A DNA stretch of 64,000 bases, taken from NCBI RefSeq assembly GCF_001536285.1, contig NZ_FAOZ01000037.1:1-64000 (forward strand), written 5' to 3'. Below are positions 24,569 through 28,693 of the stretch, piece by piece; position 1 is the stretch's first letter; every line of letters begins with the position of its first letter. The stretch is from Parafrankia irregularis (lineage in GTDB: Bacteria > Actinomycetota > Actinomycetes > Frankiales > Frankiaceae). The translations under genes and the position numbers were made by a program. A model generated the notes under the pieces. That model searched no databases. It worked only from the letters and a program-made list of their open reading frames with translations, and was not told the origin of the DNA.

Positions 24569-25448
24569 CGACCGCGGTGGGAGTTGGCGGCGTTTGTCAC
24601 GCGCAGGCCACGGTGCGGCGCGAACCTTTTCCGATCATGTACCTGCCCGACCCCATCCAAGGTCGCTGGGCGGATTGCTCGCACCCAGCCGATTGCAACA
24701 AATGATCCGTATGCAGTACCTGGAATGATAGAAAACCATTGACGGGTTCCTGCAGCGGGGTCGGAAAAGTGTCACTTCAGTGCCCTGAGCTGGCCACATA
24801 GGCCAATGCGGATCGGCCGGCCGCGTCGCCGCGTCGCCACGCCACGCCGCCATGTCGCGACGCCACGCCACTGGCCGATCTCGCTGGTGGCCCGCGGCGC
24901 CCACAGGCAAGCCGCGCCGACCGGGACACCACCGCCAAACCAGGTGTTCACGGCTTCCCGTGACACCCGGGTGGCAGGACATGAGGATCCCGGTCGTTGG
25001 AACGACGAAAATCCCCGGATCTTCGAGCCGCGACTTCAAGCTGCTGCTGCCGCCGCCAAGCAGGACCTGAGGATTTCGACTGTTGGGCACCCGTCGCGAA
25101 ATCACGTCGACCAAGATCAAGAATTGGAGGATGCGGCCGAGATCGCCTCCACTCGAAGATCATGCGATCTTTGCCGTCCTGACGACCAAAATCCTCAACT
25201 CTTGCCAGGTCGCAACAGCTGCCCGAGATCGCCATTTCGAAGATCATGGAATTCGCGTCGTCCTGACGACCACGATCGTCGGCTCTTGCCCGGCAGCAAG
25301 GGCTTCCGAGGTTCGGGATCCTGCTCCGGGCTCCAGAACAAGCAAATCCTCAACTCTTCGAGCCGCAGCTTCAGGCCGCCGCCGCCGAGTGCCGAGTGCC
25401 GAGGCTCATTGTTGAATACGGGCCGGCGAGGGGTCCGGCTCTCCTAGG
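24569..25448. other. 880-bp noncoding spacer with dispersed-repeat cluster
   Basis: The first ~200 bp is relatively AT-rich (24690-24750) and likely holds the promoter of the leftward glycosyltransferase. From ~24990 on it contains several degraded ~83-bp repeat units described separately. No credible gene is found on either strand. Confidence 0.6.
24998..25362. repeat. Dispersed repeat family 1: four degenerate copies, ~83-bp units
   Basis: Core motif GACGACCAAAATCCTCAACT followed by CTTGCCAGGTCGCAACAG. Copies are at 24998-25027 (degenerate), 25175-25219 (best), 25256-25300 and 25337-25362. Two consecutive units, each with TCGAAGATCATG about 20 bp before the core, are spaced by 82-84 bp. 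A strong inverted-orientation match lies 28 kb away at 53534-53575, and a weaker one at 53852-53880. Confidence 0.75.
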
Positions 25449-26327: not shown

Positions 26328-26564
26328 GGAGAGGATGCTACGAACCGACAGCGCTGGTGGCGAGCCTGATCGTGAAACCGCCAGCCGAGCCGCCAACGCG
26401 ACCGAAGACAATCACTTTCGCCACGGACAAGTCCACCACCTGCGAAAACACATTGGTCAACACGGCCGGGGCGGGCAGCGGCCAGGAATCCCGGTCGCCG
26501 ACGGCCACCAGAAGCCCCGGTTGACGGCCTTTACGCCCACCTGGGTCGGATACCCTCGACAACC

Positions 26565-27158
26565 GTGGCGGGGGAGCAGCTGCACCAGCGTGGAGCGGAT
26601 GGAGCCCGCCGGGCAAAGCTCTGGCTCGAGGCCACGACCCGTGCGAACGTCTACTATGTGACTCCCGAGCCAGTGGCAGTGGCGAAGCTGAGCTACCGGT
26701 GGGCTGATGGTGGAAGCTTCTCCTACGACCTCGGCGGAGTTCTGCTGGGCGGCGAGTTCCAGGGCCACGAGTTCGTGGCCGAGTCCAAGTTCTACGACGG
26801 CCATCATGACCAGGGAACTCTCTATGTGGAGTTCCTCGCGAAATGCTACCGCGCGCTGACGCTGCAGCCCACGCGAATAGACCACTTCATGTGGATCACC
26901 TGGGCCCCCTTCCTGGTGACCCGATGGTCAGACCTCCGCTCACCCGGAGAGATCCGATCCGCGGTGAAGCTGCACCGCGGACGGGTCTTCGGAAGCCCGT
27001 CGAACCACCCGGTGGACCAGATCTCGGACGAGACCTGCGAGCTCCTGGCGGAACGCCTGTGGATCATCGTGCTCTCCGAAAGACAGGAGAAGCTGGTGAT
27101 CTCCACCGAGAACCTAAGTATACTTCGGGCTGTAGGCATCGAGAGGGGAGCCGGATGA
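26565..27158 (+). CDS. Uncharacterised protein, possible PD-(D/E)xK nuclease-like fold
   Basis: A 197-residue protein that I do not recognise as a named family. Residues ~50-95 contain SYDLGGVLLGG, then FVAESKFYD, then HDQGTLYVEFLAKCYRAL. An Asp in a short strand, an ExK triad about 20 residues on, and a following Gln-containing helix is the layout of PD-(D/E)xK nucleases such as Mrr-like restriction enzymes. GTG 26565 is the assumed start. The stop overlaps the start of the next gene as ATGA, so the two products very probably work together. A role in restriction or phage defence is inference only. Confidence 0.6.
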   Translation: MAGEQLHQRGADGARRAKLWLEATTRANVYYVTPEPVAVAKLSYRWADGGSFSYDLGGVLLGGEFQGHEFVAESKFYDGHHDQGTLYVEFLAKCYRALTLQPTRIDHFMWITWAPFLVTRWSDLRSPGEIRSAVKLHRGRVFGSPSNHPVDQISDETCELLAERLWIIVLSERQEKLVISTENLSILRAVGIERGAG

Positions 27159-28693
27159 CCACCCCGACCTACGCCGCCGCACTGGAAGCAGCACTCGGCA
27201 TATCAAGTACCCGGGAAAGCGTCCAGGGCATAAAATCCGTCGTCGCGCGGGAGATCGAGGCGACCGACACGTCGGCGCGAATCCGCGACACAGGATATTT
27301 CAATCACTCGTACATGCCCGACTTCGTACTGGAATGGCCGGACGACGAGGCCGCCGGCCAGCGATTCATGTACCTGAAGTTCAGCGGCGATGCCGACTAC
27401 TTCGCCCGCGATGTCGCCCTTGTCGAGGACCGTGAGCCGATCGTCTTCAGCATCGGGCATCACCGCAACGCCCGCGCGGCCCAGGCCCGCCTCGCGGCGG
27501 AGACCGGCGCCGTCAACACGCTTCTCACCGACGCCGACGGCCTCGCCACGATGATCGAGCGGCGGGACCGCACGCCCGACGTCCGGATCATCTCCACGGC
27601 TCTCACCCAGGACGGGCGCGGATTCCTCGACGCCGAGAACGCATCCCTCATCGCCGACGGGTTCAGTCAGGGTATCGACGCGGCACGCTCATTGGCGGTC
27701 GAGGGCACCAGGCACGCGACGGACATCGTCACCGCCAGGCTTCGTCGGCGGCAGTCCCGCCTGCTGAACCAGTTCCTCCAGGCGGTGTGGGTCGGGTCCG
27801 GCGGAAGTATCGAACGGTTTCCGGGTGTCCGCGACCTGTCCGGCGAGATCGCGGACAGCGCACTGGAGTTCCTTCTCACCGGCGACGAGATCGTCGACCC
27901 GGAGTTCTGGCGGCGGCTGGGCCGGCACGCGACACTGGAGCAGCTCACCCGGCTGAAGATCGGCCGCTCGACCCGAAATCTTCAGCATTTCATCACGCAC
28001 AACATCGACGTCCTCTGGGCCCGCGCGTTCCGTCTCCAGCAAACAACGGACAGCCCGACCGAGGAGCCGGCCGCCCTGGAATGGGCGATCGAGAGAAAAC
28101 TCCTCTCACTGCGTTCCGCGGGTTTCTCCGCATATTTCGACACCTCCGTCGAGGAGCTGCGCCGGAAAACATCCGGGGCGCGCACCCGCGGAATCAGTCT
28201 GGCGGTCCTGCTCGAGCGGGCCGCCGGTACCGTGGTGGCCGAGCTGGAGATCACTGCCGACCGTCGAAGCATCGTCTACCGGTCGGACGAGAGCATCGAC
28301 ATCACCCGTGACGAGCGCCTCGCCGCGCTCGCCGCGTCGCTCGGCCCGGACGCACGTGTCACCAGAGCGCGGATTCCGGTCACACGGGACAGAAATCTCG
28401 TATGTGACTTCACCTCGCGGATCGTCGCGCCCCGAGGCCCGAGCAAGGTGCCGATGTCGGAGCTGCTGGTCTGCCTTCCCCTACTGCACGAGCTCACCAG
28501 CGCCGAAACGACCGAGCTCTCCGTGATCCTCGAATCGGCCACCGGGAAGGAGGTCATGACCGACCACTCGACCGTGCGGCTGCCGCCGCCGGCAACCGGC
28601 GAGCTCGCGGGCGGCGGCCAGGCCGCGGTGGGCGCCGCCCGGGAGGACACCGGTTGGGAGCTGGGCCGGCTACCCTTCGACGACGGCTGTTGA
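27155..28693 (+). CDS. Uncharacterised 512-residue protein coupled to the nuclease-like gene
   Basis: Function unknown. Near residues 48-75 is HSYMPDFVLEWPDDEAAGQR followed by FMYLKFSG, which resembles a PD...(D/E)xK strand pattern with a degenerate second half, so it may hold an inactive nuclease-like domain. The rest is mostly alpha-helical (FLDAENASLIADGF; LRRRQSRLLNQFLQAVWVG), ending in a Gly/Ala-rich tail. No membrane segment or NTPase motif is seen. It overlaps the preceding gene by 4 bp, with GAGAGGGGAG as a ribosome site. Its 3' end overlaps the convergent MFS gene by 24 bp. GC content at wobble positions is slightly lower than in the neighbours in places, which would fit acquired defence genes, but this was not measured. 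Confidence 0.6.
   Translation: MTTPTYAAALEAALGISSTRESVQGIKSVVAREIEATDTSARIRDTGYFNHSYMPDFVLEWPDDEAAGQRFMYLKFSGDADYFARDVALVEDREPIVFSIGHHRNARAAQARLAAETGAVNTLLTDADGLATMIERRDRTPDVRIISTALTQDGRGFLDAENASLIADGFSQGIDAARSLAVEGTRHATDIVTARLRRRQSRLLNQFLQAVWVGSGGSIERFPGVRDLSGEIADSALEFLLTGDEIVDPEFWRRLGRHATLEQLTRLKIGRSTRNLQHFITHNIDVLWARAFRLQQTTDSPTEEPAALEWAIERKLLSLRSAGFSAYFDTSVEELRRKTSGARTRGISLAVLLERAAGTVVAELEITADRRSIVYRSDESIDITRDERLAALAASLGPDARVTRARIPVTRDRNLVCDFTSRIVAPRGPSKVPMSELLVCLPLLHELTSAETTELSVILESATGKEVMTDHSTVRLPPPATGELAGGGQAAVGAAREDTGWELGRLPFDDGC

Follow-up and report, generated by a model that had tools for sequence, protein, structure and literature searches.

A candidate two-gene defence module of a nuclease-like protein and its coupled partner on actinobacterial mobile elements

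Two overlapping genes of Parafrankia irregularis appear to constitute an anti-phage or anti-mobile-DNA module that is carried on actinobacterial mobile elements and consists of a nuclease (A) and an obligate partner (B); we put the probability of this reading at roughly 0.6. The genes lie in the window, i.e. the whole stretch of 64,000 nucleotides that was analysed (contig NZ_FAOZ01000037.1, positions 1 to 64,000). Both the nuclease fold and the principle of a nuclease working with a partner have precedents; the partner family B and the combination of A with B appear to be new. The suggestion in the initial annotation that a nuclease plus a large partner might be a defence module is supported by the predicted fold of A, the patchy distribution of the pair and the presence of defence genes nearby, and it is from these that we infer the defence role itself. 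It counts against this reading that the accessory genes of a mobile element may act for the benefit of that element, and that within the genus the pair has been inherited at one site.

Gene A (26565-27158, + strand) encodes a protein of 197 aa, assigned as PD-(D/E)xK-type nuclease-like from its ORF, its homologues and its predicted fold. It starts with GTG, at a position that corresponds to the conserved N-terminus of the homologues. Gene B (27155-28693, + strand) is an ORF for a partner protein of 512 aa, which matches no Pfam family. The stop codon of A (TGA) overlaps the start codon of B (ATG) in an ATGA at 27155-27158 (+ strand), an arrangement that would be expected to couple their translation, and the spacing is kept in homologous pairs. 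The genome contains one copy of the pair. To the left are a HIT-like gene (weak Pfam match) and a short gene that by eye encodes an S4-domain protein, to the right is an EmrB-like MFS gene. The G+C content of the pair is 66.2%, against 70.3% for the window, and falls in the lowest 2.4% of sliding windows. Both genes are under purifying selection, with dN/dS values (window versus two congeners) of 0.12 for A and 0.23-0.26 for B. A promoter scan returned no sigma-70-type sites, using a sigma-70 model that is uninformative for actinobacteria. B and the convergent MFS gene overlap at their 3' ends by 24 nt (28670-28693), and this stretch is retained in a sister genome that has no pair. Elsewhere in the window, positions 24973-25380 have dozens of matches in the same genome and in the sister genome G331, at ~70-90% identity and on both strands; this is apparently a dispersed repeat family of the lineage.

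A and B form one unit. The two-gene arrangement noted in the initial annotation is kept in all 23 loci in which both genes are full-length: A precedes B on the same strand, at a distance of -10 to +7 nt (measured from the stop of A to the start of the B match). The pairwise identity matrices of the two proteins agree closely (Spearman 0.91), and none of 2000 permutations gave a value as high. Amongst Streptomyces, B follows immediately in each of the 12 genomes with a full-length A, in truncated form in G456; a thirteenth genome combines B with a remnant of A, and in two more a remnant of A is all that is left.

Two overlapping genes that are mobile and patchily distributed are also what would be seen if A were a nuclease toxin and B its antitoxin, and toxin-like genes were noticed by eye near one copy of the pair (L072). 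We consider a toxin-antitoxin system quite unlikely. In L022 B is split into two ORFs, in L081 it is reduced to an ORF of 326 aa, and in both loci A persists with its catalytic triad intact, so that A is not obviously toxic alone; these are only two loci, and A may go unexpressed in them. B is, moreover, far larger than most antitoxins.

The residues D...ExK...Q, on which the nuclease assignment of A was initially based, are present as D55, E73-x-K75 and Q83. The putative active site lies at 26727-26789 on the + strand, with D55 encoded at 26727-26729, E73 at 26781-26783 and K75 at 26787-26789. By itself such a motif is weak evidence, D-x(10-25)-ExK occurring in 1012 of 5000 shuffles of A and the same motif plus a following Q in 308 of 5000. 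What raises it above chance is its conservation, since D55, E73 and K75 are invariant in all 25 distinct full-length homologues. Of the same homologues, 21 retain Q83 and all 25 have a Y or F four residues further on, which we take to recall the QxxxY motif of RecB-like nucleases. Q174 and E175 are likewise invariant (25/25). A 26th homologue, more distant and from outside the class (L125), retains D55, E73, K75 and Q174 and differs at E175.

An AlphaFold2 model of A (pLDDT 59, pTM 0.66) was built on 4 sequences and was the only one of five models above pLDDT 38. Its elements follow the order H2-24, E42-45, E51-61, E68-74, H83-100, E107-112, which corresponds, with modest confidence, to the alpha-beta-beta-beta-alpha-beta order of PD-(D/E)xK nucleases; E73 is situated inside the predicted strand 68-74 and K75 just past it. 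A therefore combines the catalytic D...(D/E)xK residues of this superfamily with its core topology, the latter as seen in a model of modest confidence. When the model was aligned to known structures with VIA-align, the matches included PaqCI (Z 8.6), AF1548 (8.1), LmuA of Lamassu (8.0), XisH (7.9), Can2/Card1 (7.0/6.9), HamA of Hachiman (5.7), Cap4 (5.6) and R.BspD6I2 (2p14; 5.3), as well as NucS, EndoMS, BamHI and MspJI. Almost all of the matches are, as we read them, PD-(D/E)xK enzymes, several of them from defence systems, and a few are unrelated (e.g. acetyl-CoA carboxylase). Z values near 8 are common for models without a clear match, and we therefore base the fold assignment on the agreement among the listed matches combined with the invariant residues. 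Neither Foldseek with the A model nor a BFVD fold search gave a match at E <= 0.001. The outcome named as refuting in the initial annotation, a predicted fold that is not nuclease-like, was thus not seen for A in this model of modest confidence.

For B, a degenerate PD-like strand and a long helical region had been proposed. The former is well borne out. A degenerate PD-(D/E)xK-like motif, N50-H51 ... P55-D56 ... Y73-L74-K75 (27302-27379, + strand), was delimited by conservation and weak structural likeness; N50, H51, P55, D56, W61 and R70 are invariant in 24 of 24 sequences. The position of the Glu (73) is occupied by Y in 16 and by F in 8, and the position of the Lys (75) by K in 5 and by R in 19. 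B thus has the skeleton of the motif and is devoid of its acid: the acidic residue of (D/E)xK, which marks active members of the superfamily, is missing from all 24. The N-terminus of B is probably a dead nuclease-like domain. In the structural model, which is poor (mean pLDDT 46.7, pTM 0.34), residues 3-94 show a weak likeness to EcoRV, FokI, Hjc and the N-terminus of LlaBIII (Z 2.4-4.6). The long helical region does appear in the model, at about 160-290, and has the same low reliability as the model itself. The C-terminal end is the least conserved part of the protein, and this variability might fit a sensing or target-facing region.

Neither product had been recognised in the initial annotation, and profile searches give the same picture. 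Pfam returned no family for A or for B, NCBIfam no meaningful match for either, and PADLOC no match for A and one weak match for B (PDC-M70B, E 0.0017, residues 231-280). PDC-M70 requires both an A and a B component, and we rejected it as a chance match: amongst 11 scanned members of the B family only the B of the window matches, and A has no match. The name PDC-M70 is absent from the part of the open-licence literature that was covered by our searches. Matches of B to NCBIfam models of aminodeoxychorismate lyase and TEL beta-lactamase were far under the cut-off and were rejected, and weak Pfam matches in single family members (DpnII, Sm_like and others) were not accepted. A sequence-profile search against the PDB linked neither A nor B to any solved nuclease, and its matches to CPXV018, titin and transhydrogenase (E 0.28 to 1.2) were taken as chance. 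The possibility that the N-termini of A and B are mutual duplicates was rejected, as was a relationship of the B family to the SduA protein found in L082 (no match with hhalign in either case); A showed no match to the Mrr-like enzyme of L079. Literature searches with accessions and topics found no description of the pair in the open-licence papers within their reach.

In its general layout the pair resembles several known defence systems in which an effector nuclease is paired with a larger partner or sensor. A aligns structurally with the nucleases of all of these, i.e. LmuA (Lamassu), Cap4 (CBASS), HamA (Hachiman) and Can2/Card1 (type III CRISPR), at Z 5.6-8.0. The partners or sensor domains in these systems are SMC-like, helicase, SAVED or CARF. 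By contrast, B has no Pfam domain and, by inspection, no P-loop of the form GK[ST], and A has no sequence match to nucleases in the PDB. No Pfam family of helicases, ATPases or SMC proteins was detected in the B of the window or in 11 members of the B family; B thus differs from the partners by which Hachiman, Gabija and Lamassu are defined, which carry a helicase, ATPase or SMC domain. SduA of Shedu (DUF4263) is also a PD-(D/E)xK defence nuclease. In L027 and L082 an SduA gene adjoins the pair or lies close to it, and no SduA model (Pfam SduA_C / DUF4263, PADLOC) matches A or B. A further parallel is the restriction heterodimer R.BspD6I, which like the pair has two subunits and the PD-(D/E)xK fold, and with whose small subunit, R.BspD6I2, A can be aligned. 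In heterodimers of the R.BspD6I type both subunits are active nucleases, whereas B is devoid of the acidic ExK residue in 24 of 24 sequences; in addition, no methylase constantly accompanies the pair.

The distribution of the pair is patchy. In a sample of 295 Streptomyces species A was found in 15 and B in 13 (~5%), in the class of the window A was found in 7 and B in 9 of 393 genomes, and in the phylum B was found in 2 of 396 genomes, that of the window and one outside the class. Within the genus, 3 of 6 species have the pair, always at the same site, with the S4-type and HIT-like genes to the left and the MFS region to the right. In Parafrankia soli NRRL B-16219 (L018), a relative, the pair stands alone between chromosomal genes, as it does in the window and in L026. 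In the sister genome G331, the flanks are 91% and 97% identical to those of the window and are joined directly where the pair would sit; the missing segment (26363-28659) comprises nearly the whole pair and stops 34 nt short of the end of B, a remainder that in part overlaps the 3' end of the MFS gene. G276 is without the pair and has the flanking genes adjacent; G347 is without the pair and also without the MFS gene. This pattern fits the loss of a module that was resident at the site, a recent gain in the lineage of the window being a less likely alternative. The pair is therefore accessory, syntenic where it is present and not core, and the prospect raised at the outset that the genes might prove core and syntenic across the genus did not materialise. 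A host nuclease complex for DNA repair or other housekeeping would account for the shared chromosomal site in three congeners and for the purifying selection, but the pair is missing from half of the genus and most of the class and has left decayed remnants. This distribution disfavours a housekeeping role, which we regard as highly improbable.

Between actinobacteria, the pair moves on mobile DNA. With the window sequences as queries, five plasmid records in PLSDB were found to carry B and seven to carry A (Arthrobacter and Streptomyces). In L021 the pair adjoins genes annotated as a TnsA-like subunit and a Mu-type transposase, i.e. a Tn7-like element. In L078 it is accompanied by FtsK, GntR/UTRA and NUDIX genes, presumably the gene set of an actinomycete integrative and conjugative element (AICE), and the surroundings of L028 and L073 resemble those of L078 by eye. 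Within a set of 150 neighbour proteins there are five GntR/UTRA, four NUDIX and three FtsK proteins, and two proteins with a TniB domain. Phages are represented as well: a terminase large subunit adjoins the pair in L074, and on the viral contig L034 a DnaB gene (E 1e-55) precedes the pair and a gene for a portal protein (E 1e-95) follows it. The surroundings of L033 are similar to those of L034 by eye only, and the genes taken by eye for terminases (L033, 11053-12531; L034, 9409-11175) gave no PDB match. In G493 and G456 (L080 and L081) the pair is found near both ends of a long contig, in mirror-image copies beside TniQ- or transposase-like genes identified by eye, an arrangement that would fit terminal inverted repeats. 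The TniQ assignment beside L080 and L081 was also made by eye, and Pfam recognised no family in the L080 gene.

Such carriage would also be expected if the pair processed DNA on behalf of the elements themselves, in recombination, transfer, packaging or attack on competitors. The occurrence on plasmids, AICE-like elements, a Tn7-like element and phages, and in particular the positions between DnaB and portal genes (L034) and beside a terminase large subunit (L074), are in favour of such a function. However, these are very different types of element, the pair also stands alone between chromosomal genes (window, L026, L018), 50,697 phage records contained no match to three queries (B of the window, B of L034 and A of L033), and only 2 contigs carrying the pair were found in a collection of viral contigs. 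A function for the element is thus an unlikely explanation.

A defence function is suggested by the company that the pair keeps. Defence genes (R-M, Shedu, AbiE, OLD/Gabija-like) are near the pair in 9 of 23 loci for which flanks were available (window, L026, L027, L028, L029, L071-L082, L019-L022, L024 and L125). The most striking arrangement is that of L125, in the order HsdM, HsdS, HsdR, A, B, AbiEi, AbiEii, with a full type I R-M operon on one side and AbiE on the other. An SduA-like gene directly follows B in L027, and SduA is near the pair in L082 (E 2.5e-144). Other neighbours are a methyl-directed type II restriction endonuclease (L079, E 7.5e-198), a type II methyltransferase (L077), HsdM-like and HsdS-like genes (L076), an OLD/Gabija-like ATPase (L080), a type ISP R-M enzyme (L019) and HsdS with a fragment of HsdM (L024). 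No defence neighbour was identified in the remaining 14 of 23, including the window and L026, from neighbours that were partly scanned one by one. The proposed co-occurrence in defence islands was thus seen in 9 of 23 loci and did not extend to the window copy, which sits among ordinary genes outside any defence island.

PADLOC families at E <= 1e-8 numbered 139 among 150 neighbour proteins and 26 among 144 control proteins; these are heavily overlapping models (a single HsdM matches 31) and not counts of systems. Generic matches are included on both sides, for instance to models named SspA/DndA and GlgB, which we take to be an ordinary cysteine desulfurase and a glycogen enzyme. Because of this overlap and the generic matches, more weight is placed on the named loci. 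The neighbour batch comprised 15 loci, selected from 22 listed loci with 213 proteins, and was made up without the window, L026, five plasmid loci and one gene of L072. The control batch (144 of 170 proteins, 16 regions) came from the same genomes, unmatched for mobile elements, and kept L122, the control region of L026. Neither batch includes L125, which was identified later.

The R-M genes that adjoin several copies of the pair raise the possibility of a two-subunit restriction enzyme, either modification-dependent (type IV-like) or of an unusual type II, with B picking out the DNA site, modified or specific, at which A then cleaves. Such an enzyme would be a special case of the defence module proposed here. 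The PD-(D/E)xK effector is in keeping with it, as are the fold neighbours of A (PaqCI, BamHI, MspJI and R.BspD6I2). A modification-dependent enzyme would need no constant methylase, and none was found constantly beside the pair across loci or among the Pfam-scanned neighbours in the window; the linked cognate DNA methyltransferase of a classical type II R-M system is thus missing. Against this, B contains no Pfam domain at all and hence no known base-reading or target-recognition domain, and we consider such an enzyme possible but somewhat unlikely.

If the pair is a defence module, A would be the effector, a metal-dependent PD-(D/E)xK DNA nuclease that is predicted to cut via D55, E73 and K75. 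B would be its obligate partner, with the nuclease-like domain devoid of the acidic ExK residue, the helical region and the variable C-terminal part. B probably detects foreign DNA, by binding or sensing it, or some other indication of infection, and might recruit or license A to cut, the targets presumably being phages or plasmids. Since the pair has no methylase or ATPase as a constant companion, self-protection would have to come from what B reads, which may be DNA modification, DNA structure or an infection signal. More specifically, and tentatively, the pair may represent an undescribed restriction complex in which B, a dead nuclease-fold subunit, recognises foreign DNA and thereby allows the active subunit A to cut, the complex possessing neither a methylase nor a helicase or ATPase. 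It would be carried on plasmids, integrative elements, a Tn7-like element and phages, and would sometimes be used by phages to exclude rivals. Were the defence reading correct, actinobacteria would have an unlisted defence module whose active site can be tested and whose partner belongs to an unannotated family. The question of how a nuclease spares its host in the absence of a methylase or ATPase is made directly testable by the pair, and the fact that phages and integrative elements carry it points to mobile elements competing with one another.

Several other genes were observed close to the pair. In L082 (11764-18051), four genes lie near Shedu and B on the opposite strand, by eye including an SMC-like ATPase (1030 aa) and a protein kinase; the 1030-aa gene matched no Pfam or PADLOC family, and the four genes are possibly another undescribed defence operon. 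A DUF4062 protein is encoded just past the pair in two Streptomyces whose surroundings are otherwise different (L075, 11876-12997; L076, 11967-13091; Pfam E 5.5e-20 for the L076 copy). In L077 (12015-13889), a gene that by eye encodes a trypsin-like protease fused to a DNA/RNA non-specific endonuclease adjoins the pair and the type II methyltransferase.
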